From Chondrosia reniformis (taxonomy: Eukaryota > Porifera > Demospongiae > Chondrillida > Chondrillidae), in NCBI GenBank assembly GCA_947172415.1, contig OX359200.1:5334501-5398500 (forward strand): a DNA stretch of 64,000 bases, read 5' to 3'. Position numbers and translations under genes: made by a program. The notes under the pieces are model-generated. The model was given only the letters and a program-made list of their open reading frames with translations. It was not told the origin of the DNA and ran no database searches. This document shows, piece after piece, positions 22,607-61,829 of the stretch; position 1 is the stretch's first letter; the number at the start of each line of letters is the position of its first letter.

Positions 22607-25600
22607 ATGGCGCTCGTATCTGGCTGGATTTCTCTTCTCACTTTGTTTGCTCTTTATGCTGTGATTGGTAAGCATATAACTAAATCGGCACATGCATGTA
22701 TAGAGAGTTGAATTATATTAATAAGTAGATTAGCTATCTTAAAAATCGTATAAAAACATTGCAACGAACCTATATTATATCGCTCGTGCATGGTCACGTG
22801 CCACATATATAAGTTTTACTTCTATAACGTAACGGGTTACATTCTGGGAAGAAAAGTCACTGCATGGCAAAGAAATGTTTTGGTGTTTTAAGCAATTTTT
22901 AGTCATAACAGCGTGCAAGAACAAACAATCTCATAAACATGAAATCTCATGCTTATTTGAACAATAATGCACAGTACATGTTCATTATATAATACATAAA
23001 ATCAATACCATAAAGGCTCCAATTAAGTTGGTAGATTGGTTTGAGGTCAGTTTCGCTCATATTTCGCATGTCGAAATAATAAATATTGTAAGTTTCGCCT
23101 CATATAATATTTTACGCCACATCCATGCATAGCTACATCTCTTTGAATTGAGTCTATGAAAGGTCACCATTTTAAAATACTGCACAACTAGCTTTTTGAC
23201 AGCTTCGATTTCTGTTACAGAAAAAATGTGTTATTCCATACTTGTGAAACTACATATCTTGAAATGGGTTCACCACTTATCATACATATACGCCTTGGAA
23301 TAGGGGTTTACCGTTTCCCCGAAGGCCTTGAATGGGTTCAGTGTTTCCTTTTTGTTATTATATACGGCTTGAATGAGTTCACAATATCCTATAAAAGTTG
23401 ATATGTATTAACATACATAATTGAAAGGCTTGAAATATAGTTTATTTTACGAAATTGCAACATATATGTATATACATGTTGTATAATTATGATAATGATT
23501 ATGATTGATTCTTATATTGTTTACAGTACAAGTAACTGCATCTGATGCAACTACTATTGTAGTGGGGAGAGCTACTAATTCAACTACTACAATCACTGTA
23601 ACACCTACCATTGGTCAATCAGTAGAGCTGCAGTGTGTTAGGCGTGCAGGATATAAACAGTGGTACACAACAGGAAGTGCAGTAACACCCACTCCTAATG
23701 AAATAAGTACAAGTGCTGGACCTACTAGGATATTGGCCTTCTCTTCATTCACTCCAAGTCATGCTGGAACATACACTTGTTTGGTATCTTCTCCTGGTGA
23801 TACTCAGACAAAAACAACATACCCTGTGGTACTTGGTGAGTCTATATGGTAATCATTCCTATGGTTTAATGTACGTACGTACATACATCCATTGATTTTA
23901 GATTGCTACTGTATGTACAAGTTAATTGTCATATTTTAAACATTCAGACAAATATATACTTTAATATGTTGAGATATTTCCAAATGAAATTTGTTACATT
24001 AAACTACCACTAATTATCTGTTACAGTGGAATCGGACTATGTACATACAATCAACAATTAATGGATCAGTTATCTAAAAGCTTGCAAAATTGAGCATGCA
24101 TTAGCTCTACTGTAAATAATTTACTCTACTTGTTTGTACGTATATCATATAAAAATGTACATTAGTCATCTGTCCATACTTCAACTAACTGGACTGTCAC
24201 TTCAATATGAGTATCTATAACCGTTAACATACGTAGGTACCCACATATTTATTGACCTAGTTAATTTGGCACAAGTATTCATTGCGGATATGCATGCATC
24301 AATGTCCTGTACAACTTACAGATTATTGACCTAATGTGGCTAGCATTTAAATTACTCTACTGGATTGTTTTGATGTGTAAGATTCAGTTACACTGGTTGT
24401 TAAGGGTATTTTAACATGTTTTAACAACATTTTAGTTTTTATCAGAACTGTTTATAAAATGTCTGTTAACTTTATAAATTCTGTAGTTAATCCATCAGCA
24501 ACTAACACCTTAACAGTTGGTAGGACTGATGATCCAACTACTACTGTCATTATAACACCTACCCTCAGTCAACCTGTAAAGTTGGAATGTGACAGACAGA
24601 CTACAGTGAAGAACTGGTACACTGATGGAACTGTAGTAACCACCACTCCTGGAGAACTTGCTACTAGAGCTGGACGAGTTAGAACACTATCTATTTCATC
24701 ATTCAGTCCATCTCATGCAAGAGGATACACATGTACTGTGAATGGAGGTACATCTACTGCTTATCCTGTTTTACTAGGTAAGTGAGGCAATAATCAGAGC
24801 CACTACTAGCCACTCAAACGTCCATCGTATGCCATACTGATGAGTCCTAATAAGGATAAAATAGCTGTCTATGGCTCGACCATCTTTTTGAGTGGCTAGG
24901 GGGAGACTTTGGTTCCCATCCAGCAAACTTCGGTTCTGCCCATTAGCTCATTGTGCTCCTCAGGGGACATGAGTGGGCAGGGGTAATATCCATAGTTCAA
25001 TGATGATACGTATATCAATGCTTTAAGATTGGCTTTAGATCTTATGCGTCACCCCAGAATAAGAGATATTCTGAGGTATAATGTATATATATTAACTTTT
25101 AATTATTATATTATAATTTTGAAGTGTGTCTGGATGAGCATATTAACATTTTCTGTACATATATATGTTTAAGATATTAAATACAGCCTCAATTATTTAA
25201 TTTACAAGAGAATATATAGCAATAAGGCCTGCATGGGGTTTATGCACAAAGGCTGTAATGTGACTAATAGAATAGAAGAAGAACATGTGGTTTTATGGAT
25301 CTTGGATGACTAATTTGAAGTATATAGCAATTAATGGTTGTAATTTAACAGAGATTTTGCAGGATCTTCCAACCAATTGATATACGTTGGTCAATTGGTT
25401 GGTTATGTGCAATATCTCTAGTAAGTGATTAATCTCCCTTCAACACATTCTATAGGCCATGCAATATATACCTCCTGTTTATATTATATAGTGTTTTATG
25501 GATACTGCAACTTTTGCAATGTTTGAACATTCATTTGCATTGTAATAATAAGATCTAGATAGAGTGCATGTATACTGTACGGGAGTTTCACAAGGCTATA

Positions 25601-28600
25601 TATGTACATGCGAATATAGATACGTACGTATAATGACATGAATAATCTAAATACATTTTCATACATAGGCTATGCCTACTCTGTAATAAATTAAAAGTAT
25701 ATGAATACATATGTAACTAAATCTGGTGAGGGCTTGGAATGAGGATACAGGAGTCTTCTCTTTCTTCTTTCCACTGGGCCAGACAGCTGTTTTTGGGAAT
25801 TCCACCCTTCTTCATTTACTCTATCCTTTTTGATCTTTTGTGAATCCTTGGCTCATGCAATGTATAGAAATTTTATGCATAATCAATCAAGTGATCATGA
25901 CCCCGAGTTTTAGAATTCCATTGCTGATTTACATTCACATAATGGCAACAGTACATTTGTATTGACAAAGTGAAAATTATTGATACACTTACTTATATCC
26001 ATTGATATGGTTTGTGAGAATGTATGATAAAAAGTGTGAATTGTAGAATCTTTACTATATTATTAATACTGTTAATTGCTATCATTTCATTGTCACAGAA
26101 ACTCCACCTACAGTACCTGTATTACCTCCACCATCTCAAGTCCAAGGTGTAATGGTAACTCGAAGTGGAACATCATTGACTGTTTCATGGACTGCAGTTA
26201 CTGTAACTGATCCAAAGTATAAGCTATTATATGTAGTTAGATATTCAACTGATAGAGGTAATGAAACAGATCCACCATCTGATGCTATGAAGAGATCAGG
26301 AATCAGTGCTAGATCAACTACACTGACTGGACTTCAATTAGATACCATCTACTATGTTTGGGTAGCAGCTGAAATACTTGGTGCTGGAGTGCAAGGACCT
26401 TACAGTACTAGGGTATTTAATAAAGGTTACTTGATTGTTCATTGTATTGTAGCTGTGTAACAACTGCACATCTATATATAATGACTACTTTACCAACATG
26501 TTAACAAAACATTTTTGCTATTATTATGCCATTCCTTTTTAGTGTAAATAATAATGTATACAGATAATTTATATATCATACTTATATACTGTATATCTAC
26601 ATACGTACATATAGTATGTATGTATTATTATGTATCTATAAATGTTAATATATATATATATATATATATAAACTCCTCCTGCTGCATGAAGAGTACAGAA
26701 AAATTCCCTAATCTTTATAGTCCCATCTAAAGTTACTGGAGTGTCGGTGTCCCCGATTGTGACATCAAATCAACCATCACTTCATGTCACATGGTCAGCT
26801 CCTTTAAGTGATCATATCATACTACACTATCAAGTAGACTATAGAGTGGATACCTCTGGTAGTTGGAGCACATGGAGTCCAAATCCTACATCTACTTCAG
26901 TGACACTGACTGGTCTTCAAAGAGGAACTACCTATCAAGTGAGAGTGAGAGCTGTGTCTGATCTTGGAAGTGGAGCATGGAGTGTTGTAGTTAGTAGTTC
27001 TACTTATGATGGTAAATTACTAAGCATTGGACAGCTAATCTTGATATATACTGCTTTGTATGTAAATATTACAAGTTTATTCATACGTATATATAGTGTT
27101 GATAAAATAGTATCTGTTTCCAAGCATAATTAATTAATTAAAAGGTGCAGTATTGCAATTGTGTACTAACATGCTGTAAAAGACTCTATTTCTTCTGTGG
27201 TGTTTGATATCACCGTCTGCTTAAAACTCTACCTTGCATATACAGTACTTAGATATTTAGATTGTAGTTTAATTAATAGTTTAATATATGTAGACGTTCA
27301 TGTCCTGGATTGTATATAGACCTGCATAATAATATTAATTTATGTTGCCCAGTTCCAGGTGCTCCCACTAACCTCATGATATCTTCTCCATCTGGATCAT
27401 GTGACCAACTGATGATTACATGGACAGCACCATCTAACACTGGAGGACTACCAGTCAAGTATAAAGTGTATAGAAATGGTACATTAATACATCAAATGAT
27501 AACTACAGCTACTACTACATGGAGTGGTCTAACAGCTAACATGCAGTACACAGTGAGAGTAGTAACTTTCAATGAACTGGGAGATGGAGGAGAAGTGACA
27601 GGAACAAGAAGAACAAGACCTCAATGTAAATATTAAATAACACTATATACTAATGTGTTTTAGCAATTCTCAATTGTCAATTGAGCTTGAGGTTATATAT
27701 ACATGGCTCAATAGATACTTCATACATGAGACATTTTTACTATGTATACAACTATTACAGTGTTACTTCTTCTCTATAATATACATGCTCTCATGTATAT
27801 AGCTCCTTCAATATCTTCACTGTCAGCCAGTTCTTCAACACAACTCATCATCACACTCACTGCACCAGCTAGATCATTGTCTCTTACTTACGAATGTATT
27901 ATATCTACAACTAAGAGTGGTCTGTCTCCAAAGACTGTAACTGATACAGTGTTACAGTATACAGTGAATGGTTTAAGTCCTTATGTTACTTACACTGTTG
28001 AATGTACATCTTCAAATGGTGAAGATTCTTGTAATTCTAATATGAACACTATAAGAATGCCTTCAGATGGTGAGTGAATATGCAAGGATATGGTTCATTG
28101 TATATGATGAGAACACCACCGAACTACCGTATATAATATACCATTTCATATTCAGATACGTACTATACCTTTTCTTAGTTCCCAGTGGACCTCCACTTAA
28201 CCTTAATGTAAGATTAATGTCGGATACTTCTGTCATCCTAACTTGGGAACAACCAGCGCAAAAACACAGAAATGGTGAAATTACTGGATATGTAATAAGA
28301 TATAAAGGAACTACAGTCTCAAGTAATGAAGAAATGATAACAGTTGGGAGAGGTGTTACTGAACTGGAACTGAATGACCTGATTACTGGTGAAAGTTACC
28401 ATTTCAGTATTGCTGCCCAGACAATAAATGGAACAGGACCATATGATAATGTAACAATTGTAATTGAAGGATGTAAGTCTACTTTGAAGTAAAAGTGATA
28501 ATATTAGGCCATTAGCTTGTTAGCTGTTGCTACTTGTTTATATATACATATGTACGTATGTATATATGCTCTATACGTCTTGAATATTATACATGTACGT

Positions 28601-31065
28601 ATATATAGTGCCTGGTCCAGTTTTAAACTTAAGAAGTCGTCCTACTGATGTTACTTTTGAGTGGGATCCACCAGTTCCAACAGGAAAGCATGGACAGATT
28701 GTTAGTTATACAGTTGTTTACGGAGAACTGGGTGTGGATGGTACTAGAGTTTCTCTAACTAATGATACCACCAGTTATACCATAAGTCTTACAGGTGAGA
28801 ATTATATGCATATGGACTCTATCATATTCTTCATAAATCCTTTATAATAATTATTATTATAGTCTATTACTATTAAATCTAACATTTTATAATAGCACGC
28901 AATTCTATGGAATCATAGGTAGGAGTAAGACAGTTCTATAATACCGTACATATAGCTGGAAATGTTGCATTTGGTAGATTGTTCTTATATATATATCAAT
29001 AATTTGCTATATAGGTGAAAGGGTACCATACTACATCAATATATCAGCTAGCACAGCTGGTGGAAGAGGAGAGGAGAAACAAGTTGTTTACTTGTTAAAT
29101 GTTATAGGTATACCATTTATACGTACAACTAGATTAATATATATATCACACCATTTGTATATATACATAGATAGATTATATATAGGTATATTATAGCAAC
29201 ACTCATGTATACTGCTACGTATATAATTTTTATCTAAATAATACATTTTGTAAATTTTACCAATACACACTCTTTAGATCTTTCTACAACTATTAATACA
29301 TCTACAGTCAAGACTGTATGGAGTGGTAACTCACTCACTATCAGTTGGGAACCACTAACTCTACAAGCAAGAGGATTTCCAGTGTACTATATATACCTCA
29401 ATGATAGTAGTGGACCTGTTAAGAGAGAAATAGAACCAACAGCTATCACTACAGAGTCAAGTATAGTGATTGGTGGTTTGGACTCCTCTCAGATGTACAC
29501 ATTAGCTATAGCAGTTGCTACTAATGAAGGGAAGTTGGTGGGCAGAGTGAGTGAAGCAGGTAAATGTATACAAACTGTATTTAGAGCAGTCAAACTGTTG
29601 AATAAGGGATTATCCATATATACCACCTAATACATATCAATTATGTAGTACTGTATATACGTATATATTAAGAAATGGCTATAGAATGTATACTTTATAT
29701 TAATGATTATTATTATTCATAAATATAATTTCTATCTTATAGTATGATGCCCCCATGTATGTATGTATTAAATGGGTGGTATTGTAGATTCATCTATATA
29801 CTAAACAGCTATCCTTATGGTGGTTAATTATTGAGCATGCTGTAGTTTTATGAAACAAGAATTTCAAGACATTTCAGTCCCCTGACCTTCATCAGTTGAG
29901 ATGACACAATAGGTTATATCCAAAGTATATAAACATTGTGGTAGCGGCGTGAAGTTGTGACATAGAGTAATATAAAATATGGTGCAATAGTTCTAAAAAT
30001 AGTTCTAAAATAATTGGTTGTGGAGAAAAGGAAATTAATAAATAAATAATGTAGGGTCGTTATGTTAATGGGGGAGGGGGGTTAATGACCTTGTATATAC
30101 CAGACATGGTTCAAGGTAAGTCCTCTGTCCAGGTTGGCAGTATTGTGGTGACCTTGAATCTGGATAGCTTCTAGGATCTTTCTCCTTCCTTGGTGGCTCT
30201 CAATCTTCACCACGGTTGCTCCATCCCAGTTAACTTGGTGGCCTTCATCTATCCTTATATACATACATATATATACACATTGCTGATGAAGATTTCCGGG
30301 TCGAAATGTCCAAATCTGTCAAAATATGTGTTGCTGATGCTCAAAAATAATTGATTGCCATAATGATCACAACTATTACTTCATACACATGAATGTACAT
30401 ATATATGAAATATACATCTGTATACATGTAGCCACATATTGTACATATATATATAAACATACCATTAGTGGTGATATCAAGTCAACCAGTCAGAGCTCAA
30501 GAAGGCAAAGGCAATCCTCCATGTGCTGTATATATTGTTTGCGGTCTCTTTGGAGGAGTAGCTATTGGAGCTGTAACCACGGTGATTATGTACAAGATAA
30601 TATGTGGAGTGCCCAACAGGTATACTTGTAGGAAAAGAAGACCAACTGATAAAAAGAGAAAAACCACACAAACTGAAATGTATGAGAATGTTATTAAATT
30701 ACACAATACATTAAAATCCAAAAATTATTTTAATTACCCAATTATCTATAACTTGTATGTATACATATACCTACAAATTAGAATAGCCAAACAAAAAGGT
30801 ATAACCTTATACCTTATGTGAAGCATTGAATATACGTATGTATATATTATGATGAATGTGCATGGAAGCAAAGTTATTGTATATACAGTGCAAGTTACAA
30901 TACTAAGGTAATCTAATCTAATATATATATGTAAACAAATTCTTCTCATGCAGGGATGAATTTAAGGTGAATTGTGATCCTGACTATGCAGTTCCAGATA
31001 TGCCAATGGATAAGAATCCAGCTTATGTTGCAGTCAAGCATTATGACACAGTTGGAGAATCATGA
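22607..31065 (+). CDS. Ig-FN3 transmembrane receptor, copy 1
   Basis: Thirteen exons join in frame to 978 residues: 22607-22667, 23527-23835, 24487-24777, 26099-26425, 26721-27011, 27353-27625, 27803-28069, 28179-28472, 28609-28794, 29015-29107, 29278-29559, 30469-30619 and 30954-31065. Exon 1 is a signal peptide (MALVSGWISLLTLFALYAVI). Exons 2 and 3 are one Ig domain each, with the Cys, Trp and YTC marks. Exons 4-8, 9+10 and 11 give seven FN3 domains. Exon 12 holds the membrane helix AVYIVCGLFGGVAIGAVTTV, with a glycine-zipper pattern. The tail ends NPAYVAVKHYDTVGES. NPxY is a PTB/endocytosis motif in other receptors. All introns but the last are phase 1, as in shuffled extracellular modules. 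I know no named orthologue; adhesion or self/non-self recognition is plausible but inferred. Confidence 0.85.
24806..24899 (+). ncRNA. Hammerhead ribozyme, inactivated copy
   Basis: The core is at 24831-24875: stem I GCCATA/TATGGC, CTGATGA, stem II GTCC/GGAT, then AAAA where GAAA is required, then a short stem III and GTC. The G12-to-A change should abolish catalysis. A 13-bp inverted repeat (ctagccactcaaa/tttgagtggctag) encloses it. It lies in intron 3 of receptor 1 and pairs with the intact copy at 42968. Confidence 0.75.
25638..25860 (+). mobile_element. Degraded hammerhead-repeat copy
   Basis: Recognisable by catgaataatctaaatac, ggctatgcctactctgtaat and ccactgggccagacagctgt. The CTGATGA box is lost (the site reads cttcttcattta) and GAAA is AAAA, so the ribozyme is dead. 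It is in intron 3 of receptor 1, with a duplicate at 43797. Confidence 0.55.
29868..30320 (-). mobile_element. Penelope-like element remnant with hammerhead-like motifs
   Basis: The minus strand at 30264-30082 encodes a 60-residue piece with NWDGA, RRKILEAIQIQ and NTANLDRGLTL. This is the pattern at the end of the GIY-YIG endonuclease of Penelope-like retroelements (R..I.EAI, N.D.G). Downstream on the same strand, 29900-29868 has CTGATGA followed by a possible stem and GAAATGTC. On the opposite strand, 30284-30310 has CTGATGA, a weak stem and GAAATGTCC. The catalytic and reverse transcriptase regions are gone. It lies in intron 11 of receptor 1. Confidence 0.6.
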
Positions 31066-36005: not shown

Positions 36006-36013
36006 AATTGTTC
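36006..36013. other. Tandem duplication junction
   Basis: Left of here the sequence matches the BLM intron up to about 57905 (ttcagagttcaaaat). From 36012 it matches the VIRMA intron at 17672 (tcatttttgtaccttttt). At most three bases (tgt) belong to neither side clearly, so joining used little or no homology. Confidence 0.85.
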
Positions 36014-37314: not shown

Positions 37315-37570
37315 ACATGAAAAATCTAAGATACCATTTTCCTACATGCTATGCCTATTCTGTAAAAGAGCCTATAGGGGAACTAAACCTGAAGAGAGCT
37401 TTGGATGAAGATACAGGAGTCTTTTCTTCCTTCTTTTTTCTTCATCTCTTCTCCACTGGGTCAGACAACCGTTTCTGGGAACCACCCTTCATCAGTGATC
37501 CTGGGAGTTTTTGTCTTTTTCTTTATCTTTATCTTGATCTTCTGTGAATCCTTGGCTCTCTATGCTAAAT
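37315..37570 (+). mobile_element. Hammerhead-bearing repeat (duplicate of 18976)
   Basis: Copy 2 counterpart of the repeat at 18976. The ribozyme core on the complementary strand is at 37458-37501 and its boxes are intact. Confidence 0.65.
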
Positions 37571-38635: not shown

Positions 38636-38729
38636 TATCTTTTGGAAGGATTATCTTTCAACTTTTAGACCGTCTAAAAATGCAGTTTGGTTGTCTCCCA
38701 AAGTTGAAAGATGATCCTTCCAAAAGATA
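38636..38729. repeat. 30-bp-stem hairpin, duplicate
   Basis: Counterpart of 20297-20390, unchanged by inspection. Confidence 0.55.
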
Positions 38730-39954
38730 AGCTTGACGCAGTTAGTAGAAATCCTTATTCTATAAACCTGTAGGTCTTCATCAGCTAGCAACCTACAGGA
38801 CTGGTTAAAACCTTTCATTGTCACTCAATAACTAACCCATCACAAAAGAGGGCCTATCATTTCATACGCATTAATATACTAACCAAAAACTAAGTAATAC
38901 GTAAGCTTCCAAAGGCATGTACATGTATTAATCTGTATGTTACCTATTGCAGAGTCACCTTCCTCAGAATCTGCCACATTTTGGACTCCATCCATATGTT
39001 CCAAGTGCTTTCATGCATTCACAGTTGTCCTCAAGAGCATGGAGCCTGCCAGGGAGTCCGTTTGGAAGTAGAGATCTAGCTACTCTCATTCGGATGCCCT
39101 CCTCAGTATTGACCTCTATGAGAGCAGGACTTAGATAGACTTGATTATCATTTGAAACTGGTTGTTTTCTAATAATAATAGATTACTGCTATGACATGTT
39201 ATTACTAAAATACGTAAAAAATAATTTACAATTGGATTAGTTTATACTATATCTGGGGTTGATATTCAATATACCAATTTTGTATATTATATAGTAAATA
39301 TATTACGTGATTGCTGTTTGTTTTGATACATGAATTATACTGTAGATTATTATTAAAATAATCAAATTAATTTTTGAAAATGTGTGCACCATAGGCCAAA
39401 CTGCGTGATGAAGAAGTGAAGAAAGAGAAAACTCTGTATCCTCATCCAAAGCTCTCACTAGGTGTAGTTGGCTTTATATATTTAAGGCCTTTACTTGAAA
39501 GTAGGTGTAGTGTGTACATATTAGATTAATCATAGGAAGGGACCTACAGGTTGGTATATAGCTATGTTTACGAACTTATTGGATGCATAGTTAAGTTGTT
39601 ATTGCAATTTTCTAGTAATAGCTGGTAATTGCATTGCCCCACTAGTAAAAACTTTAGGGAACATTGCCCCATTTATTTATTTAATGTACTATACAAGGAT
39701 AATTAATGGTGACTAACTTTAGGGAGCACCTCCCCCCACTGCCCATGCTGCATGCACCTGCTCGTTGAAGCCTGATCAGTTGATGTTTAACACTAAACAA
39801 CATGTAGAGGGCAGTCTCTCTCTCTATATATATAAGTTGATTGATACAGACAGACAGCACTGCACTATTATGGTAAACCTAGCCTGTGGTTATAGCTGAT
39901 TTGTTTCATGGGATTCTATGCAATGTAGAACACATTGAAATTTAAATTTGTATG

Positions 39955-40215
39955 TATGAAAAATCTAAGATACCATTTTCCTACATGCTATGTGCCTATT
40001 CTGTAAAAGAGCCTATAGGGGAACTAAACCTGAAGAGAGCTTTGGATGAAGATACAGGTCCTGGAGTCTTTTCTTCCTTCTTGTCCCTTCTTTCATCTTC
40101 TTCTCCACTGGGTCAGACAGCCGTTTCTGGGAATTCCAACCTTCATCAGTGATCCTGGGAGTCTTTGTCTTTATCTTTTTCTTGATCTTCTGTGAATCCT
40201 TGGCTCTCTTTGCTA
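39955..40215 (+). mobile_element. Hammerhead-bearing repeat (duplicate of 21808)
   Basis: Counterpart of the repeat at 21808. The ribozyme core is at 40110-40155 on the complementary strand. CTGATGA, GAAAC and GCTGTC are intact, and stem II differs by one base in its loop. Confidence 0.65.
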
Positions 40216-40727
40216 AATCTAGGGGCCTTATATACTATTATGTACATAAAATACACATACATGTGTATAATAATATGAGTCTTTTCCATATATAAGATTG
40301 CATGATCTAATATAAAAAAGCTTAAGAAGTCAGTTAGTATGCACCCCATGCAGCTCTATATAAAACCTTCATTTTTTATAAAAATACATGCGGTTGTCAT
40401 GCAGTGACACATGCATTGCATGATTCAGATTGTCCTTCGAATTCCTTTATAATTAGTAATACTCACCAGTCTTTTGGCAAAGATGAATCGCAATACATGC
40501 TGAAAATGCATATATAAGCTTGGATAAATTATATTTAGCCTGTAAATTTAATATTAAAATGATTATTGCATATATAGCTATACATTTATGATCTCATACA
40601 TAGTACAGAATCGATGGAAAACGTAGTCCAACGTAAAATTATCGTGGCCTAAAAAAAATTTTTGAGAAAGGGAAGTGTACGCTGGCAGGTTTAGTCAATA
40701 CTTCAAGTTTCAGATTCTCGCATAGAC

Positions 40728-43700
40728 ATGGCGCTCGTATCTGGCTGGATTTCTCTTCTCACTTTGTTTGCTCTTTATGCTGTGATTGGTAAGCATATAA
40801 CTAAATCGGCACATGCATGTAGAGAGTTGAATTATATTAATAAGTAGATTAGCTATCTTAAAAATCGTATAAAAACATTGCAACGAACCTATATTATATC
40901 GCTCGTGCATGGTCACGTACTACATATATAAGTTTTACTTCTATAACGTAACGGGTTACATTCTGGGAAGAAAAGTCACTGCATGGCAAAGAAATGTTTT
41001 GGTGTTTTAAGCAATTTTTAGTCATAACAGCGTGCAAGAACAAACAATCTCATAAACATGAAATCTCATGCTTATTTGAACAATAATGCACTGTGCATGT
41101 TCATTATATAATACATAAAATCAATTACTCACATTCATCACAATTACAATTGAGCTTGGAATACCATAAAGGCTCCAATTAAGTTGGTAGATTGGTTTGA
41201 GGTCATTTTCGCTCATATTTCGCATGTCGAAATAATAAATATTGTAAGTTTCGCCTCATATAATATTTTACGCCACATCCATGCATAGCTACATCTCTTT
41301 GAATTGAGTCTATGAAAGGTCACCATTTTAAAATACTGCACAACTAGCTATAGCTTCTTTTTGACAGCTTCGATTTCTATTACAGAAAAAATGTGTTATT
41401 CCATACTTGTGAAACTACATATCTTGAAATGGGTTCACCACTTATCATACATAAACGCCTTGGAATGGGGGTTTACAGTTTCCCAAAGGCCTTGAAATGG
41501 GTTCAGTGTTTCCTTTTTGTTATTATTGAATGAGTTCACAATATCCTATAAAAGTGATATGTATTAACATACATAATTGGAAGGCTTGAAATATAGTTTA
41601 TTTTACGAAATTGCAACATATATGTATATACATGTTGTATAATTATGATTATGATCATGATTGATTCTTATATTGTTTACAGTACAAGTAACTGCATCTC
41701 AGCCAACTACTATTGTAGTGGGGAGAACTACTAATTCAACTACTACAATCACTGTAACACCTACAATTGGTCAATCAGTAGAGCTGCAGTGTGTTAGGAG
41801 TAAGTATATAGAATATAAACAGTGGTACACAACAGGAAGTCAAGTAACACCCACTCCTAATGAAATAAGTACAATTGCTGGACCTACTAGGATATTGGCC
41901 TTCTCTTCATTCACTCCAAGTCATGCTGGAACATACACTTGTTTGGTATCTTCTAAGGGTGATACTCAGACAAAAACAACATACCCTGTGGTACTTGGTG
42001 AGTCTATATGGTAATCATTCCTATGGTTTGATGTACATACATCCATTGATTTTAGATTGCTACTGTATGTACAAGTTTGTAATTGTCATATTTTAAACAT
42101 TCAGACAAATATATACTTTAATATGTTGTGATATTTCCAAATGAAATTTGTTACATTAAACTACCACTAATTATCTGTTACAGTGGTAATGGGTATGTAC
42201 ATACAATCAACAATTAATGGATCAGTTATCTAAAAGCTTGCAAAATTGAGCATGCATTAGCTCTACTGTATATAAGTTACTCTACTTGTTTGTACGTATA
42301 TCATACATTAGTCATCTGTCCATACTTCAACTAACTGGACTGTCACTTCAATATGAGTATCTATAACCGTTAACATAGGTACCCACATATTTATTGACCT
42401 AGTTAATTTGGCAAAGTATTCATTGCGGATATGCATACATCAATGTCCTGTACAACTTACAGATTATTGACCTAATGTATGCACTACTTACTACACTATG
42501 TATTGGATAGCATTTCTACTTGATGGTTTTGATGTGTAAGATTCAGTTACACTTGTTGTTAAGGGCATTTTAACATGTTTTAACAACATTTTAGTTTTTA
42601 TCAGAGCTGTTTATAAAATGTCTGTTAACTTTATAAACTCTGTAGTTAATCCATCAGCAACTAACACCTTAACAGTTGGAAGGACTGATGATCCAACTAC
42701 TCCTATCACTATAACACCTACCCTCAATCAACCTGTAAAGTTGGAATGTGACAGACAGACTACAGGGAAGAACTGGTACACTGATGGAACTGTAGTAACC
42801 AACACTCCTGGAGAACTTGCTACTTCAGCTGGAGCTGGAGTTAGAACACTATCTATTTCATCATTCAGTCCATCTCATGCGAGAGGATACACATGTACTG
42901 TGAATGGAGGTACATCTACTGCCTATCCTGTTATACTGGGTAAGTGAGGCAATAATCAGAGCCACTACTAGCCACTCAAACGTCCATCGTATGCCATACT
43001 GATGAGTTCTAATAAGGACGAAACAGCTGTCTATGGCTCGACCATCTTTTTGAGTGGCTAGGGGGAGACTTTGGTTCCCATCCAGCAAACTTCGGTTCTG
43101 CCCATTAGCTCATTGTGCTCCTCAGGGGACATGAGTGGGCAGGGGTAATATCCATAGTTCAATGATGATACGTATATCAATGCTTTAAGATTGGCTTTAG
43201 ATCTTATGCGTCACCCCAGAATAAGAGATATTCTGAGGTATAATGTATATTTATTAACTTTCAATTATTATATTATATATAATTTTGAAGTGTGTCTGGC
43301 TGAGCATATTAACATTTTCTGTACATATATATGTTTAAGATATTAAATACAGCCTCAATTATTTAATTTACAAGAGAATATATAGCAATAAGGCCTGCAT
43401 GGGGTTTATGCACAAAGGCTGTAATGTGACTAATAGAATAGAAGGAGAACATGTGGTTTTATGGATCTTGGATGACTAATTTGAAGTATATAGCAATTAA
43501 TGGTTGTAATTTAACAGAGATTTTGCAGGATCTTCCAACCAATTGATATACGTTGGTCAATTGGTTGGTTATGTGCAATATCTCTAGTAAGTGATTAATC
43601 TCCCTTCAACACATTCTTTAGGGCATGCAATATATACCTCCTGTTTATATTATATAATGTTTTATGGATACTGCAACTTTTGCAATGTTTGAACATTCAT

Positions 43701-46700
43701 TTGCATTGTAATAATAAGATCTAGATAGAGTGCATATATACTGTACGGGAGTTTCACAAGGCTATATATGTACATGCATATATAGATACGTACGTATAAT
43801 GACATGAATAATCTAAATACATTTTCATACATAGGCTATGCCTACTCTGTAATAAATTAAAAGTATATAAATATATATATGTAACTAAATCTGGCGAGGG
43901 CTTGGAATGAGGATACAGGAGTCTTCTCTTTCTTCTTTCCACTGGGCCAGACAGCTGTTTTTGGGAATTCCACCCTTCTTCATTTACTCTATCCTTTTTG
44001 ATCTTTTGTGAATCCTTGGCTCATGCAATGTATAGAAATTTTATGCATAATCAATCAAGTGATCATGACCCCGAGTTTTAGAATTCCATTGCTGATTTAC
44101 ATTCACATAATGGCAACAGTACATTTGTATTGACAAAGTGAAAATTATTGATACACTTACTTATCCATTGATATGGTTTGTGAGAATGTATGATAAAAAG
44201 TGTGAATTGTAGAATCTTTACTATATTATTAATACTGTTAATTGCTATCATTTCATTGTCACAGAAACTCCACCTACAGTACCTGTATTACCTCCACCAT
44301 CTCAAGTCCAAGGCGTCATGATAAGTGGAAGTGGAACATCCTTGACTGTTTCATGGACAGCAGTAACTGATCCAAAGTATAAAATATTATATATAGTTAG
44401 ATATTCAACTGATAGAGGAACTGAAACAGATCCACCATCTGATGCTATGAAGAGATCAGGAATCAGTGCTAGATCAACTACACTGACTGGACTTCAATTA
44501 GATACCATCTACTATGTTTGGGTAGCAGCTGAAATACTTGGTGCTGGAGTGCAAGGACCTTACAGTACTAGGGTATTTAATAAAGGTTACTTGATTGTTC
44601 ATTGTATTGTAGCTGTGTAACAACTGCACATCTATATATAATGACTACTTTGCCAACATGTTAACAAAACATTTTTGCTATTATTATGCCATTCCTTTTT
44701 AGTGTAAATAATAATGTATACAGATAATTTATATATCATACTTATATACTGTATATCTACATACGTACATGTAGTATGTATGTATTATTATGTATCTATA
44801 AATGTTAATATATATATATATATAAACTCCTGCTGCTGCATGAAGAGTACAGAAAAATTCCCTAATCTTTATAGTCCCATCTAAAGTTACTGGAGTGTCG
44901 GTGTCCCCGATTGTGACATCAAATCAACCATCACTTCATGTCACATGGTCAGCTCCTTTAAGTGATCATATCATACTACACTATCAAGTAGACTATAGAG
45001 TGGATACCTCTGGTAGTTGGAGCACATGGAGTCCAAATCCTACATCTACTTCAGTGACACTGACTGGTCTTCAAAGAGGAACTACATATCAAGTGAGAGT
45101 GAGAGCTGTGTCTGATCTTGGAAGTGGAGCATGGAGTGTTGTAGTTAGTAGTACTACTTATGATGGTAAATTACTAAGCATTGGACAGCTAATCTTGATA
45201 TATACTGCTTTGTATGTAAATATTACAAATTTATTCATACGTATATATAGTGTTGATAAAATAGTATCTGTTTCCAAGCATAATTAATTAATTAAAAGGT
45301 GCAGTATTGCAATTGTGTACTAACATGCTGTAAAAGACTCTATTTCTTCTGTGGTGTTTGATATCACCGTCTGCTTAAAACTCTACCTTGCATATACAGT
45401 ACTTAGATATTTAGATTGTAGTTTAATTAATAGTTTAATATATGTAGACGTTCATGATCATGTCCTGGATTGTATATAGACCTGCAAAATAATATTAATT
45501 TATGTTGCCCAGTTCCAGGTGCTCCCACTAACCTCATGATATCTTCTCCATCTGGATCATGTGACCAACTGATGGTTACATGGACAGCACCATCTAACAC
45601 TGGAGGACTACCAGTCAAGTACAAAGTGTATAGAAATGGTACATTAATACATCAAATGATAACTACAGCTACTACTATATGGAGTGGTCTAACAGCTAAT
45701 ACACAGTACACAGTGAGAGTAGTAGCTTTTAATGAACTGGGAGATGGAGGAGAAGTGACAGGAACAAGAAGAACAAGACCTCAATGTAAATATTAAATAA
45801 CACTTTATACTAATGTGTTTTAGCAATTCTCAATTGTCAATTGAGCTTGAGGTTATATATACATGGCTCAATAGATACTTCATACATGAGACATTTTTAC
45901 TATGTATACAACTATTACAGTGTTACTTCTTCTCTATAATATACATGCTCTCATGTATATAGCTCCTTCAATATCTTCACTGTCAGCCAGTTCTTCAACA
46001 CAACTCATCATCACACTCACTGCACCAGCTAGATCATTGTCTCTTACTTACGAATGTATTATATCTACAACTAAGAGTGGTCTGTCTCCAAAGACTGTAA
46101 CTGATACAGTGTTACAGCATACAGTGGATGGTTTAAGTCCTTATGTTACTTACACTGTTGAATGTACATCATCAAATGGTGAAGATTCTTGTAATTCTAA
46201 TATGAACACTATAAGAATGCCTTCAGATGGTGAGTGAATATGCAAGGATATGGTTCATTGTATATGATGAGAACACCACCGAACTACCGTATATAATATA
46301 CCATTTCATATTCAGATACGTACTATACCTTTTCTTAGTTCCCAGTGGACCTCCACTTAACCTTAATGTAAGATTAATGTCGGATACTTCTGCCATCCTA
46401 ACTTGGGAACAACCAGCGCAAAAACACAGAAATGGTGAAATTACTGGATATGTAATAAGATATAAAGGAACTCCAGTCTCAAGTAATGAAGAAATGATAA
46501 CAGTTGGGAGAGGTGTTACTGAACTGCAATTGAATGACCTGATTACTGGTGAAAGGTACCATTTCAGTATTGCTGCCCAGACAATAAATGGAACAGGACC
46601 ATATGATAATGTAACAATTGTAATTGAAGGATGTAAGTCTACTTTGAAGTAAAAGTGATAATATTAGGCCATTAGCTTGTTAGCTGTTGCTACTTGTTTA

Positions 46701-49187
46701 TATATACATATGTATGCTCTATAAATCTTGAATATTATACATGTACGTATATATAGTGCCTGGTCCAGTTTTAAACTTAAGAAGTCGTCCTACTGATGTT
46801 ACTTTTGAGTGGGATCCGCCAGTTCCAACAGGAAAGCATGGACAGATTGTTAGTTATACAGTTGTTTACGGAGAACTGGGTGTGGATGGTACTAGAGTTT
46901 CTCTAACAAATGATACCACCAGTTATACCATAAGTCTTACAGGTGAGAATTATATGCATATGGACTCTATCATATTCTTCATAAATCCTTTATAATAATT
47001 ATTATTATAGTCTATTACTATTAAATCTAACATTTTATAATAGCACGCAATTCTATGGAATCATAGGTAGGAGTAAGACAGTTCTATAATACCGTACATA
47101 TAGCTGGAAATGTTGCATTTGGTAGATTGTTCTTATATATATCAATAATTTGCTATATAGGTGAAAGGGTACCATACTACATCAATATATCAGCTAGCAC
47201 AGCTGGTGGAAGAGGAGAGGAGAAACAAGTTATTTACTTGTTAAATGTTATAGGTATACCATTTTTATACGTACAACTAGATTAATATATATATATATAT
47301 CACACCATTTGTATATATACATAGATAGATTATATATAGGTATATTATAGCAACACTCATGTATACTATCTAAATAATACATTTTGTAAATTTTACCAAT
47401 ACACACTCTTTAGATCTTTCTACAACTATTAATACATCTACAGTCAAGACTGTATGGAGTGGTAACTCACTCACTATCAGTTGGGAACCACTAACTCTAC
47501 AAGCAAGAGGATTTTCAGTGTACTATATATATCTCAATGATAGTAGTGGACCTGTTAAGAGAGAAATAGAACCAATAGCCAGCACTACAGAGTCCAGTAT
47601 AGTAATTGGTGGATTGGACCCCTCTCAGATGTACACATTAGCTATAGCAGTTGCTACTAATGATGGGAAGTTGGTGGGCAGAGTGAGTGAAACAGGTAAA
47701 TGTATACAAACTGTATTTAGAGCAGTCAAACTGTTGAATAAGGGATTGTATACCACATAATACGTATCAGTTATCTATGTAGTACTGTATATACGTATAT
47801 ATTAAGAAATGGCTATAGAATGCATACTTTATATTAATAATAATTATTATTCATAAATATAATTTCTATCTTATAGTATGATGCCCACATGCATGTATGT
47901 ATTAAATGGGTGGTATTGTAGATTCATCTATATATAGATCAGTTATATACTAAACTGCTATCCTTATGGCAGTTAATTATTGAGCATGCTGTAGTGTTAT
48001 GAAACAAGAATTTCAAGACATTTCAGTCCCCTGACCTTCCGAGATGACACAATAGATTACATCTGAAGTATATAAATGTTGTGGTAGCGTCGTAAAGTTG
48101 TGACATAGAGTGATATAATATGGTCCAATAGTTCTAAAAATAGTTCTAAAACAATTGGTTGTGGAGAAATTAATAAATAAATAATGTAGGGTCGTTATGT
48201 TAATGGGGGAGGGGGGGGTTAATGACCTTGTATATACCAGACATGGTTCAAGGTAAGTCCTCTGTCCAGGTTGGCAGTATTGTGGTGACCTTGAATCTGG
48301 ATAGCTTCTAGGATCTTTCTCCTTCCTTGGTGGCTCTCAATCTTCATCACGGTTGCTCCATCCCAGTTAACTTGTTGGCCTTCATCTATCCTTATGTACG
48401 TACGTATATATACGTACAAATTGCTGATGAAGATTTCCGGGTCGAAATGTCCAAATCTGTCAAATATATGTTGCTGATGCTCAAAAATAATTGATTGCCA
48501 TAATGATTGCAACTATTACTTCATACACATGAATGTATGTACATCTGTATACATGTAGCCACATATTGTACATATATATATAAACATACCATTAGTGGTG
48601 ATATCAAGTCAACCAGTCAGAGCTCAAGAAGACAAAGGCAATCCTCCATGTGCTGTATATATTGTTTGCGGCCTCTTTGGAGGAGTAGCTATTGGAGCTG
48701 TAACCACGGTGATTATGTACAAGATAATATGTGGAGTGCCCAACAGGTATACTTGTAGGAAAAGAAGACCAACTGATAAGAAGAGAAAAACCACACAAAC
48801 TGAAATGTATGAGAATGTTATTAAATTACACAATACATTAAAATCCAAAAAATATTTTAATTACCCAATTATCTATAACTTGTATGTATACATATACCTA
48901 CAAATTAGAATAGCCAAACAAAAAGGTATAACCTTATACCTTATGTGAAGCATTGAATATACGTATGTATATATATATTATGATGAATGTGCATGGAAGC
49001 AAAGTTATTGTATATACAGTGCAAGTTACAATACTAAGGTAATCTAATCTAATATATATATGTAAACAAATTCTTCTCATGCAGGGATGAATTTAAGGTG
49101 AATTGTGATCCTGACTATGAAGTTCCAGATATGTCAATGGATAAGAATCCAGCTTACAAGTGTCACAGTGAATATATGAACAATTAG
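40728..49187 (+). CDS. Ig-FN3 transmembrane receptor, copy 2
   Basis: Same architecture as copy 1, with an open frame of 976 residues over 13 exons: 40728-40788, 41683-41997, 42646-42939, 44265-44585, 44875-45165, 45513-45785, 45963-46229, 46339-46632, 46757-46942, 47161-47253, 47414-47695, 48596-48746 and 49085-49187. Compared with copy 1, Ig domain 1 has a 2-residue insertion (RAG to SKYIE) and six other changes. Ig domain 2 has a 1-residue insertion and about eight changes. The first FN3 domain differs only in its first half. The last exon lost about 62 bp, so the tail reads NPAYKCHSEYMNN instead of NPAYVAVKHYDTVGES. NPAY is kept, the YDTV part is lost and a new SEYMNN appears. YMNN fits the YxxM and YxNx patterns of PI3K and Grb2 SH2 sites, but function is not shown. 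Confidence 0.85.
42968..43061 (+). ncRNA. Hammerhead ribozyme, intact type I core
   Basis: The core is at 42993-43037. Stem I is GCCATA/TATGGC (6 bp, perfect), followed by CTGATGA. Stem II is GTTC/GGAC with loop TAATAA, followed by GAAA. Stem III is ACA/TGT closed by a two-base GC loop, and then comes the cleavage triplet GTC ending at 43031. G10.1-C11.1, A15.1-U16.1 and C17 are all canonical. A 13-bp inverted repeat (ctagccactcaaa/tttgagtggctag) at 42968-42980 and 43049-43061 encloses it. Hammerheads with such a tiny stem III, known from Penelope-like elements, are reported to work best as dimers. It lies in receptor intron 3, so it could cut the pre-mRNA. Confidence 0.8.
43797..44025 (+). 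mobile_element. Degraded hammerhead-repeat copy (duplicate of 25638)
   Basis: Counterpart of 25638-25860, with the same losses of CTGATGA and GAAA. Confidence 0.5.
47995..48450 (-). mobile_element. Penelope-like element remnant, duplicate
   Basis: Counterpart of 29868-30320. The minus strand at 48512-48219 is open and includes NWDGA, RRKILEAIQIQ and NTANLDRGLTL. The sense hammerhead-like motif downstream has lost 'atcagttg', so its CTGATGA is destroyed here. The antisense motif at about 48422-48448 remains. Confidence 0.55.
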
Positions 49188-50033
49188 TTGTAAGATTTGT
49201 ATGGCTTTAGGACTAGTATATAAACTGATGTGTGATGTGTGAACACTAATATAATGTAGTTTGTGTACAAATTATACGGTAGCTTGGAATATACGTATAA
49301 TGGGTTGCAATTATTGTTTTCGTATCATTTATAAATAACTGGATCTGCTAACTTATTATGATCCTAACTCATACATAAACAACATCTACTCGTTATAAGA
49401 AAAACACGAACCATGTTTACATGCAGAGATGGCAAAGTTGTCAGGAGACAGTGTATACAAGTATATATATATATATAAAAAGCAAATGGATTCCTAGCTA
49501 TGGCAATAGCTATAGACATGCAAGACACAAGTCCACTGATTCTCAGATTATGAATGTACGTACTTAATTCATCAATCTAACTTTAGATAATCCTTTAAGC
49601 ACTCTATTGTTATATATATATACCGTATATATAGCGGGATATTTTCACAGATGGGATGTGAATCTTTGAAAAGTCCTCAGAAAAAATGTTCACTATTCTT
49701 ATATTGTTATAATTATTTTTACAAAGTACGTGAAACTTGAACGTACATATATATAAAAAAAGGCAGTGGTTAGAGTACCAATACCGGTAACGGAACGTAT
49801 TGCGCATGCGTTACCGGTACACAAAAGTGAGCTATTAAAGTGTACAAAAGTGGTTAAGCACCGTCAAGAATTATATTACATTTATATAAGTATAATATAG
49901 GTATAACTGTACATCGATAAGCACCAACTTACAAACTCCGTACACATAGCTGTGTTAAAGTAGCTGTAATAAAACAATACATATACGTTATAGAAAACCT
50001 TATTAGCTAGGCGAATGGCAAAAGGGAAAAGAA
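49188..50033. other. 3' flank of receptor 2
   Basis: No gene seen. AT-rich, collinear with 31066-31996, with small indels in TA runs. Confidence 0.4.
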
Positions 50034-50450
50034 CTGACAGTTAAGGGGGTCCAGGTGTGTGCCAACTGTCCTACGCACATCTTATAAGCTTGCCGGTGCT
50101 TAAGTCACTTTTTGCTCTAAGCACTGGCAAGCCCCAAACTGACAGTTAAGGGGGTCCAGGTGTCTGCCAATTGTCCTACGCCCATCTTATAAGTTTGCCA
50201 GTGCTTAAGTCACTTTTTGCTCTAAACACCGGCAAGCCCCAAACTGACAGTTAAGGGGGTCCAGTATCTGCCATGCAACTGTCCTACACCCATCTTATAA
50301 GCTTGCTGGTGCTTAAGTCACTTTTTGCTCTAAGTACCAGCAAGCCCCAAACTGACAGTTAAAGGGGTCCAGGTGTCTGCCAACTGTCCTACGCCCATCT
50401 TATAAGCCTGCCGGTGCTTAAGTCACTTTTGCTCTAAGCACCGGCAAGCA
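50034..50450. repeat. 105-bp hairpin satellite, copy 2
   Basis: About four units equivalent to 31997-32375, with the last unit complete (hairpin tgccggtgctta/taagcaccggca). Confidence 0.85.
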
Positions 50451-50745: not shown

Positions 50746-51180
50746 ACACGATTAATTTGTACCTATATTATCAGTCATCTTGCTATTATTCGTATTCATT
50801 AATGATCATCATTACGGTAGACACTGAAGATTAGCAGGCTTACCCACAAATTCGACACTTTTCTGTCCTAAACGGATTAAAACAAAACTGTCTACATCGT
50901 CGTTCAAGGTTTCGTTCCATTTACAGGCCTAAATACAGAAGTAAAAGCTTTAATCATCGCTTGAAGAACAGCTACTGCAAGACCCCGGGCTATTAATCGA
51001 ACCTTCAAACATAACACTTTCCAAAATCTATTGTTCTTCCTCTTTAAGTCAACTCTGGATTTGCTGCAGGCCATAAAAGAAAGAAAATACGAACGAAAAA
51101 CCTCGATTAACTTGGCGTGAGTAAGCTACCTCGCCGTTGTTGCTGGTGCTTAAATTTATACTATATAATATATACTATAT
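50746..51180. other. Unique-looking spacer before the retrotransposon
   Basis: No gene found. It ends in a gctggtgcttaaa sequence at about 51141, which is the foldback-element end also seen at 53358-53424. This suggests the retrotransposon landed in or beside such an element. Confidence 0.35.
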
Positions 51181-51184
51181 AGTA

Positions 51185-54766: not shown

Positions 54767-61829
<7,063 letters not shown>

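Follow-up and report, generated by a model that had tools for sequence, protein, structure and literature searches.

The window, a 64,000-nucleotide stretch of the genome of the sponge Chondrosia reniformis, contains two tandem receptor genes, copy A and copy B, both with the architecture Ig-Ig-FN3x7-TM. Their exons, and the loops of the first Ig domain (Ig1), are as follows:

22607..22667 (+), copy A signal-peptide exon: ATG and hydrophobic MALVSGWISLLTLFALYAVIV, GT donor
23527..23835 (+), copy A Ig1 exon, the hypervariable domain: AG/GT, phase 1, Pfam Ig_3, AF2 Ig fold
23640..23651 (+), copy A Ig1 BC loop (residues 38-41), from AF2 strands
23670..23702 (+), copy A Ig1 C-to-D loop (residues 48-58), loop pN/pS
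23715..23723 (+), copy A Ig1 DE loop (residues 63-65), loop pN/pS
23790..23807 (+), copy A Ig1 FG loop (residues 88-93), loop pN/pS
24487..24777 (+), copy A Ig2 exon: AG/GT, phase 1
26099..26425 (+), copy A FN1 exon, last exon closest to C12 neighbours
26721..27011 (+), copy A FN2 exon, first stalk exon closest to genes outside the array
27353..27625 (+), copy A FN3 exon
27803..28069 (+), copy A FN4 exon
28179..28472 (+), copy A FN5 exon
28609..28794 (+), copy A FN6, first half
29015..29107 (+), copy A FN6, second half
29278..29559 (+), copy A FN7 exon
30469..30679 (+), copy A transmembrane exon: hydrophobic YIVCGLFGGVAIGAVTTVIMY
30954..31065 (+), copy A cytoplasmic exon, encoding NPAYVAVKHYDTVGES and stop
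40728..40788 (+), copy B signal-peptide exon, same sequence as copy A
41683..41997 (+), copy B Ig1 exon: 16 substitutions relative to A, 6-nt insertion in BC loop
41796..41813 (+), copy B Ig1 BC loop with 2-residue insertion, from alignment to A
42646..42939 (+), copy B Ig2 exon: 14 substitutions and 3 nt relative to A
44265..44585 (+), copy B FN1 exon
44875..45165 (+), copy B FN2 exon: 2 differences from A
45513..45785 (+), copy B FN3 exon
45963..46229 (+), copy B FN4 exon
46339..46632 (+), copy B FN5 exon
46757..46942 (+), copy B FN6, first half
47161..47253 (+), copy B FN6, second half
47414..47695 (+), copy B FN7 exon: 11 differences from A
48596..48806 (+), copy B transmembrane exon
49085..49187 (+), copy B cytoplasmic exon, NPAYKCHSEYMNN and stop: NPAY kept, YDTV end missing

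The introns of both genes are in phase 1 throughout, the last one excepted, and each gene model has a single Ig1 and a single Ig2 exon in the genomic sequence. With a signal peptide, a Cys-Trp-Cys Ig core, and one transmembrane segment, A and B are predicted by gene model to be type I membrane receptors of the immunoglobulin superfamily, the signal peptide and transmembrane segment of both being assigned by hydrophobicity only. Copy A Ig1 matches Pfam Ig_3 at E 6e-7 (30.2 bits, just over the cut-off of 30) and Ig2 at E 2.9e-5, under the curated cut-off; the V-set family (PF07686) scored 21.7 bits, below its curated cut-off of 26, and no kinase domain appeared among the Pfam matches of the full copy A gene model. 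The NPAY motif and the Y[DN]T[IV]GES-stop of the copy A tail are also found in both (2/2) of the C6 genes read, and the tail end of copy B has been altered by deletion relative to copy A. The copy A transmembrane exon has distant relatives on C6, C13, and C5; transmembrane exons were searched for in the C12 genes g1-g8 and not identified.

A comparison of the two copies (21306-31025 and 39454-49156) shows 95.3% aligned identity, and a block upstream (17666-21127 and 36007-39466) is 99.2% identical. The initial annotation gave the exon coordinates and splice sites correctly, and its tallies were reproduced: in Ig1, 16 substitutions and 6 nt (15 of the base changes fall in codons with a changed amino acid, and a single codon differs silently); in Ig2, 14 substitutions, 10 of them replacements and 4 silent, with a 3-nt insertion; and in FN1, differences confined to the first half (within codons 16-54 of 108). 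The near-identity described for FN2, FN6, and the introns holds in FN2 (2 differences) and the two FN6 exons (3) but not in the introns near the Ig exons, where intron 2 is 4.3% diverged (27/627). Intervals 23256-23405 and 24306-24455 differ at 10/141 and 17/150 positions, the intron preceding the transmembrane exon is 4.1% diverged (36/875), and FN7 (3.9%) is diverged to the same degree as FN1 (3.7%).

An excess of replacements between the two copies had been read as a signature of diversifying selection, a reading that does not hold on these two copies alone. With pathways averaged, Ig1 carries 13.5 nonsynonymous and 2.5 synonymous changes, a dN/dS of 1.92 that is not significant (replacement excess, Fisher one-sided P=0.17-0.37), and Ig2 has a dN/dS of 0.90; a ratio at or below 1 in the Ig exons, which had been named as evidence against selection, is thus found in Ig2 and not in Ig1. 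Nonsynonymous change in Ig1 and Ig2 together (24/438) shows no excess over the nearest noncoding sequence (23256-23526 plus intron 2; 40/889, P=0.50), mildly exceeds introns 1 and 2 taken whole (46/1475, P=0.029), and exceeds all introns pooled (108/5343, P=7e-5). The FN2-TM stalk exons have a pN/pS of 0.40. Pairwise A-B dN/dS was rejected as proof of selection, as it is not significant. The accompanying caveat that gene conversion might be responsible was well placed: both states occur in other array genes at 10 of the 16 Ig1 and 9 of the 14 Ig2 differences, so that much of the difference between A and B is reassorted family variation.

The initial annotation had proposed looking for further loci, and these are present in number. 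A total of 71 strong Ig1 matches (E <= 1.3e-31), none with a stop, are distributed over six contigs; A and B lie in an array of ten genes on C12, and two C6 genes have the same domain order and tail end. The starting set comprised 72 Ig1-class tblastn pieces in the examined loci at >=60% identity, three of which were without a complete splice signal where the region ended inside the exon (the two halves of g6 Ig1, and C3:738690). Restoring g6 Ig1 as a whole exon and leaving out C3:738690 gave 70 exons read entire with splice signals, 68 of them distinct, and C36, W45, and C84 are invariant in all 70. When the Ig1 alignment was used as a search profile (7988 candidates scored), it returned 119 proteins, mostly on the same few large contigs. 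In a full-length search (7997 candidates scored), no relative of the same architecture was found among the named matches listed (best 120 of 123). These named matches consisted of FN3 proteins and remotely similar adhesion molecules of Ig-FN3 type, among them netrin receptor DCC (31%) and a DSCAML1-like protein of Dysidea (22%), identities in both cases being over parts. No report of such a sponge receptor family was found in the open-access literature. The family, found here in C. reniformis, is apparently lineage-restricted.

Selection was assessed across this family with a tree-free pN/pS computed on 29-32 independent pairs from the 70 Ig1 exons, with loops defined from AF2-predicted strands (pLDDT 69.6, medium confidence). 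The whole exon gave a ratio of ~1.05-1.12, not significant. The BC, DE, and FG loops together gave 1.71-1.76 (P 0.0047, 0.0015), rising to 1.98-2.04 when widened by one residue (P 1.4e-5, 1.7e-6), compared with 0.73-0.76 in the strands and 0.85-0.87 in everything outside the loops; the loop P values are nominal, three distance cut-offs and ten site classes having been tried. Taken singly, the C-to-D loop (1.89-1.94, P 0.006-0.01, 29-32 pairs), the DE loop (1.97-2.18, P 0.05-0.014), and the FG loop (1.89-1.92, P 0.026-0.017) are all elevated. The BC loop, with a mean entropy of 2.26 bits across 70 paralogues, is not significant alone (1.34-1.35), and 11 very close pairs gave a loop ratio of 2.28 (P 0.12).

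Codon site models indicated strong positive selection, with 2dlnL 51.4 (w 6.2) for the 11 Ig1 of the C12 array and 313.8 (w 3.6) for the 68 distinct Ig1 of the family, or 270.6 without C12, the family values being set against the nominal cut-off. This test is inflated by recombination, as 18 of 80 simulations under a recombination null for the array Ig1 passed the nominal cut-off, but none reached 51.4, the maximum being 18.0. The FN1 value (24.4) is above that maximum, from a null built for Ig1. Selection on Ig2 was rejected, since its M2a statistic (10.1) falls inside the same Ig1-built null; the Ig2 M8 posteriors, at 1.00 for every one of 25 sites, cannot be used. Among the 24 sites that the family model flagged, the four loops account for 10, positions next to them for 3, and residue 44 for 1; the other 10 fall within the first 27 residues, an N-terminal part that is less securely aligned. 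Taken together, these sequence comparisons support positive selection on Ig1 that is concentrated in the loops of the distal domain, with N-terminal sites flagged too; the diversifying selection first proposed from two copies is thus carried by the family-wide Ig1 loops, and not by the A-B pair or by whole exons.

A second Ig1 set, differing from that of the assembly mainly in the loops, was identified in the protein database. Differences number 25/118 in loops versus 25/384 elsewhere on contig 2157753 (5/5 clusters), 57/297 versus 87/993 on contig 9271787 (13/34 clusters; 7 were identical and 14 were dropped as >16% different or <80 aligned residues), and 22/118 versus 30/377 on small contigs (5/8 clusters); on contig 3197828 (2/2 clusters compared), the loop excess is not significant (P 0.22). 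Contigs 807642, 823625, 6744381, 7566015, 8541523, and 7542460 lie outside this comparison, and database clustering at 90% hides close alleles. Exact matches and contig sizes indicate that the second set is probably the other haplotype.

Recombination is detectable in the Ig1 of the C12 array (PHI P=0.001, 50 bp). Between copy A and the eight other full array genes, Ig2 dS is 0.013-0.070 and intron 3 is alignable over 0-10%. Copy A FN1 is 82-89% identical in amino acids to seven of these eight genes, 77% to g7, and 77-80% to the two C6 genes. The best matches of FN2 are on C6 (79-85%) and on C13 and C2 (80-81%), versus ~52% or less to other C12 array genes, and the FN2-FN4 stalk is closest to genes of another chromosome. 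At the protein level, the array neighbours of copy A Ig1 are no closer than some C6 copies. Head and stalk thus show a mosaic pattern of similarity, which was probably made by exon-scale exchange.

The reading we favor, with a probability of roughly 70%, is that A and B belong to a large family of germline-encoded recognition receptors that has diversified through duplication, exchange at the scale of exons, and selection acting on Ig1. A fixed Ig1 frame with loops changing fast under selection is what would be expected of a recognition or immune system, and we infer a recognition role with good reason. The membrane-distal Ig1 would display CDR-like loops (BC, C-D, DE, and FG) on a near-invariant Ig frame. 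Copies would arise via tandem and dispersed duplication, gene conversion or exon shuffling would spread and reassort head exons and loop variants among them, exon-scale exchange would couple heads to differing stalks, and loop residues would be repeatedly replaced under positive selection. Putative ligands may be non-self, either microbes or allogeneic cells; binding by the Ig head would probably be relayed via the seven-FN3 stalk to the short tail, with its conserved NPAY and Y[DN]T[IV] motifs as the presumed signalling part. As a named family whose loops and gene coordinates are precisely placed and whose binding face is predicted, it can be tested directly, in a species that has a genome at chromosome level and harbours a dense microbiome. 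Such a family would also place antibody-like use of Ig loops, and exon-scale exchange as a source of diversity, at the base of the animals.

It is possible that the loops, instead of binding microbes, serve as self-labels in allorecognition and match cells homophilically or through a partner, in the manner of Alr or Dscam. Most differences between the two Ig1 sets, which probably represent two haplotypes of a single animal, are in loops, the Ig1 fold resembles cell-adhesion Ig domains, and sponges tell self from non-self grafts (available text of PMC5450542), but the 71 strong matches over six contigs exceed the needs of one compatibility locus. More tentatively, and with somewhat lower probability, the favored family may amount to an antigen-receptor-like germline repertoire, with at least 70 V-like heads per haplotype, CDR-style hypervariable loops, and reshuffling of heads among stalks through exon-scale exchange, and would then be the molecular basis, long sought, of sponge self/non-self recognition or symbiont discrimination.

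A neutral mosaic, in which duplication and gene conversion reassort pre-existing variants while the loops are under relaxed constraint and free of positive selection, is unlikely. It would accommodate the PHI result, the majority of A-B Ig1 and Ig2 differences being shared family variants, the whole-exon ratio close to 1, and the inflation of site models by recombination, but relaxed constraint cannot push a ratio above 1, and the tree-free loop values of 1.7-2.0 (P down to 1.7e-6) count against it, as does the array statistic, reached in 0/80 recombinant simulations. We find it doubtful that the family is a Dscam- or NCAM-like adhesion or developmental identity code for tissue patterning rather than immunity: the Foldseek matches to NCAM2 and sDscam Ig1 and the partial DCC and DSCAML1-like matches agree with it, but such a code needs stable labels, with which fast loop change and apparent haplotype differences would sit oddly. 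That A and B are two haplotypes placed in tandem by the assembly is very improbable, for although 95% identity could be allelic divergence, the 254-kb stretch contains zero N, the HiFi assembly has QV 69.8 (available text of PMC12181767), a 7.54-Mb database contig, perhaps another version of the same assembly, has both Ig1 exactly, and the downstream flanks of A and B differ by a retroelement-bearing stretch.

Sponge aggregation factors differ from the present family in being secreted proteoglycan cores with other domains. They resemble it as polymorphic sponge recognition molecules (cited titles in PMC5450542). Sponge surface proteins with Ig-like domains include a Geodia receptor tyrosine kinase and adhesion molecules (available text of PMC12018476 and PMC11999971); compared with that kinase, the Chondrosia receptor is a many-gene family with no kinase domain in the gene model. 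The Hydractinia Alr family of the allorecognition complex has 41 genes (available text of PMC11999971), and the sponge family has two Ig and seven FN3 domains and is larger and dispersed. As in vertebrate antibody and TCR V domains, an invariant frame carries changing BC, DE, and FG loops; unlike these, the sponge family is germline-encoded and its V-set score is under the cut-off. Foldseek matches of the Ig1 model include Fab light chains in addition to NCAM2 Ig1 and sDscam Ig1, whose folds the modelled domain resembles. The order of Ig domains, FN3 repeats, and a transmembrane segment is shared with arthropod Dscam and vertebrate DCC and NCAM, with DCC and DSCAML1-like as named matches at 22-31% identity over parts only. 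Unlike in Dscam, diversity in the sponge appears to come from separate genes, with no alternative-exon array in gene models A and B; in g7, the genomic sequence carries an additional Ig1 exon ~0.8 kb upstream of the gene.

The window carries two tandem receptor genes, copies A (21306-31025) and B (39454-49156), which are 95.3% identical in a self-alignment of the window. Each has 13 exons encoding a signal peptide, a membrane-distal Ig domain (Ig1), a second Ig domain (Ig2), seven FN3 domains (FN1 to FN7, with FN6 spread over two exons), a transmembrane segment and a short tail, and the gene models are 998 (A) and 996 (B) residues long. The tail of A ends in NPAYVAVKHYDTVGES, that of B in NPAYKCHSEYMNN. 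The two tails diverge through deletion (exons 30954-31065 and 49085-49187), with A ending in YDTVGES, which resembles both relatives read on contig C6, and B in SEYMNN; signalling by the two copies may differ. Downstream, the duplication continues at 96.2% identity in the self-alignment. The flank upstream of the receptor copies (17666-21127 and 36007-39466) is 99.2% identical between the duplicates versus 95.3% in the adjoining receptor segment, and a single duplication unit thus contains blocks with different apparent ages.

Diversifying selection in the Ig exons had been proposed in the initial annotation from a comparison of these two copies. Its counts are reproduced, at 16 substitutions plus 6 nt in Ig1 and 14 substitutions plus 3 nt in Ig2. 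By the Nei-Gojobori method, Ig1 has a dN/dS of 1.92 (13.5 of 226.8 nonsynonymous and 2.5 of 79.2 synonymous sites), above 1 as the proposal requires but not significantly so, while Ig2 falls below it at 0.90 (10 of 211.3 and 4 of 76.7). FN1 has a dN/dS of 0.33, and the pooled exons from FN2 to the transmembrane segment have a pN/pS of 0.40. The excess of replacements is not significant in one-sided Fisher tests of either Ig exon (Ig1, P 0.17-0.37; Ig2, P 0.69). Taken together, the nonsynonymous differences in Ig1 and Ig2 (24 of 438) do not exceed those in the nearest noncoding stretches (40 of 889, P 0.50) but do exceed those in the whole of introns 1 and 2 (46 of 1475, P 0.029) and in all introns (108 of 5343, P 7e-5). 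The verdict against noncoding DNA thus depends on the stretch chosen, and the A-B pair alone does not demonstrate selection.

The two copies belong to a large family. The searched genome totals 117,379,552 bases in 15 contigs; the genome report describes this assembly (odChoReni1.1, GCA_947172415.1) as 14 chromosomes and a mitochondrion from HiFi reads at QV 69.8, with a longest scaffold of 10.41 Mb, an N50 of 8.46 Mb and a deposited alternate haplotype (PMC12181767). A single Ig1 peptide found at least 151 matches (150 of 289 candidates scored). The 71 strong Ig1-class matches (E <= 1.3e-31; next match 9.2e-26) lie on contigs C12, C6, C1, C3, C9 and C7, and none contains a stop codon; the remaining, weaker matches are more distant and some are Ig2-like. 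Seventy of the 71 were read whole with splice signals and form the Ig1 set analyzed here. In one fetched set of 20 loci, Ig1 precedes Ig2 in 19. The tandem array on C12 (OX359200.1) holds ten genes (g1 to g8, A and B) and one additional Ig1 exon upstream of g7. On C6, five Ig exons run at 717-747-base spacing on the minus strand (348724-351921), which could be one gene with several Ig domains or an array of alternative exons. Also on C6, two Ig1-class exon pairs with equal scores lie 34.7 kb apart (3075455-3079830 and 3110186-3114561). At the DNA level their Ig1 exons do not differ, which points to a large duplication of recent date or to an assembly repeat.

Across this family, selection in Ig1 is concentrated in the loops. 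The AlphaFold2 model of Ig1 has an Ig fold (pLDDT 69.6, pTM 0.60, 81-row alignment) with strands B 32-37, C 42-47, D 59-62, E 66-71, F 80-87 and G 94-100, and its Foldseek matches are I-set and V domains (NCAM2 Ig1, titin, sDscam Ig1 and Fab light chains). These strands define the tested loops BC (38-41), C-D (48-58), DE (63-65) and FG (88-93), although these loop assignments are partly tied to the variability itself, as the model was built on the same family alignment. In the Ig fold, the BC, DE and FG loops cluster at the same end of the domain. Cys36, Trp45, Leu69, Phe71, Tyr82 and Cys84 are invariant in all 70 sequences, and positions with at least 2 bits of variability (maximum 3.1) fall in or beside loops (37, 39-42, 53, 56, 62, 63, 65 and 89) and near the N terminus (2-4, 11 and 14-18). 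In a tree-free analysis of independent closest pairs, with no sequence used more than once (29 and 32 pairs), pN/pS is as follows.

Replacement-to-silent ratios in Ig1, closest pairs (P for 29 and 32 pairs where two values are given)
Whole Ig1: 1.08-1.12, not significant
BC, DE and FG together: 1.71-1.76, P 0.0047 and 0.0015
BC, DE and FG, each loop broadened by one residue: 1.98-2.04, P 1.4e-5 and 1.7e-6
C-D: 1.89-1.94, P 0.01 and 0.006
DE: 1.97-2.18, and FG: 1.89-1.92, P 0.05-0.014
BC alone: 1.34-1.35, P 0.2
EF: 1.14-1.30, not significant
Strands: 0.73-0.76
All four loops: 1.79-1.80, P 1.2e-4 and 4.1e-5; complement 0.85-0.87

In the eleven very close pairs the BC, DE and FG ratio is 2.28, which is not significant (P 0.12). 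Site models, in our own implementation, give statistics of 51.4 (M1a/M2a) and 48.6 (M8a/M8) for Ig1 of the C12 array, with flagged sites in or beside the four loops as well as at residue 44 (one site) and within residues 1-15 (three sites). The statistic is 313.8 for family Ig1 (68 distinct sequences) and 270.6 when C12 is left out; among the other head exons it is 10.1 for Ig2 and 24.4 for FN1. Of the 24 sites flagged by the family model, 10 fall within the four loops and 3 next to a loop; another 10 are among residues 1-27, and the remaining one is residue 44.

Recombination is evident in the array by the PHI test, both in Ig1 (P 0.001 with a 50-bp window, 0.018 with 100 bp) and in a concatenation of the three head exons (P 0.001); the null of no recombination is retained for Ig2 alone (P 0.96) and FN1 alone (P 0.39). 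For family Ig1, P is 0.012 (50 bp) and 0.51 (100 bp). Many A-B differences have both states elsewhere in the array (10 of 16 in Ig1, 9 of 14 in Ig2 and 4 of 12 in FN1). Because recombination inflates site models, 80 array-like alignments were simulated on five segment trees without positive selection, as a control for the array set. Eighteen of the 80 exceeded the nominal 5.99, but the maximum was 18.0 and none reached 51.4.

In the protein database, 81 clusters are Ig1-like. All 16 on database contig 1,361,078 are identical to Ig1 exons read from the genome. Of the nine on contig 7,542,460, six are array genes exactly, one is identical to a C12 copy at 1.92 Mb, and two are g6 and g8 except for the first residue. 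None of the five clusters on contig 2,157,753 has an identical copy among the 70 Ig1 exons, and 27 of 34 on contig 9,271,787 are identical to none of those read. Four of the unmatched clusters (P0002, P0007, P0012 and P0030) were searched against the genome, with best identities of 90, 89, 89 and 84%; the remaining ones were compared with the 70 exons only. P0002 resembles copy A and is identical to it over the first 34 residues; of its ten changes, seven fall in loops, two at a distance of one residue from a loop, and the tenth elsewhere. Differences are likewise enriched in loops on contig 2,157,753 (25 of 118 versus 25 of 384 elsewhere, P 1.5e-5), contig 9,271,787 (57 of 297 versus 87 of 993, P 2.7e-6) and the small contigs (22 of 118 versus 30 of 377, P 0.002). 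The simplest reading of this second set is the alternate haplotype; no allele frequency is claimed, since clustering at 90% masks near-identical alleles.

Similarity between copy A and other array genes is largely limited to exons. DNA identity of A to other C12 genes is 83-90% in Ig1, 87-97% in Ig2 and 88-93% in FN1, and in most genes the alignments end near exon borders. Against the eight other full array genes, its Ig2 dS is 0.013-0.070, while 0-10% of intron 3 and 23-42% of intron 2 can be aligned, except in g7, where intron 2 aligns fully at 82% and intron 3 is unshared. If exons and introns had the same neutral age, introns and silent sites would be comparably similar. For A, exchange at the scale of exons or repeated replacement of introns is therefore needed; a less favoured explanation of its exon-limited similarity is selection on silent sites. 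The pattern does not hold for every pair, as several pairs among g1 to g8 keep alignable introns (e.g., g1-g3, g3-g8 and g6-g8).

The genes also show mosaic similarity, A and B being closest to genes outside the C12 array from FN2 onward. The best FN2 matches are 79-85% on C6 and 80-81% on C13 and C2, versus about 52% or less in C12, and FN3 and FN4 match two C6 genes at 79-87%, versus 64-68% and 33-39% in C12. The relationship is reversed for Ig2 (84-94% in C12 versus 70-73% in the two C6 genes); FN1 stands at 77-89% versus 77-80%, and Ig1 does not discriminate (72-82% versus 75%). Both C6 genes have the domain order of A and B and a tail ending in NPAYN[AV]VNTY[DN]TIGES; NPxY is a docking motif for PTB domains. 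In one of them FN2 is doubled; in the other, FN2 has only 40% identity and an FN6a match is absent. Fragments are also present on C12: part of an A/B-type FN7 exon inside g7, between Ig2 and FN1 (5287327-5287559, 91% over its second part), and FN2 fragments at 5271360 and 5321840.

The Ig1 loops may bind a changing ligand, microbial or allogeneic, with the FN3 stalk presumably keeping the head off the membrane and the cytoplasmic tail presumably signalling. A family of about 70 dispersed heads is slightly more in keeping with discrimination of microbes or symbionts than with a single compatibility locus. In Halichondria, most pattern-recognition-receptor transcripts are reported to be expressed in an individual-specific manner, and Ig/FN3 domains to occur in putative cytokine receptors (PMC8242945), a result kindred in spirit to the Chondrosia family though not the same finding.

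Several other elements accompany the receptor copies in the window. The DEAD domain was detected in neither of the two listed ORFs of at least 150 aa between copy A and 36 kb. RecQ-type pieces lie downstream of both copies, the one at 54767-55501 being assigned by similarity only.

Repeats and RecQ-type pieces in the window
32849-33583, 34276-34800, 54767-55501, 56190-56702 and 59462-59950, minus strand: RecQ-type helicase pieces (RQC, HRDC, zinc-binding and helicase C; DEAD in the last)
31997-32372 and 50032-50449: 105-base tandem repeats, one block downstream of A and one downstream of B

In the unmatched stretch of the two downstream flanks, an open 655-residue reverse-transcriptase ORF (51169-53136, PF00078) is followed by an HDV-like ribozyme match (53926-53998, RF02682, 47 bits), which together look like a retroelement between B and its flank. 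Intron 3 of each copy contains a type I hammerhead ribozyme match, at 42993-43037 in B (33.7 bits against an Rfam cut-off of 34, E 4.2e-7) and at 24831-24875 in A (22.0 bits, E 0.003), where conserved core positions differ; the hammerhead of B looks the more intact.
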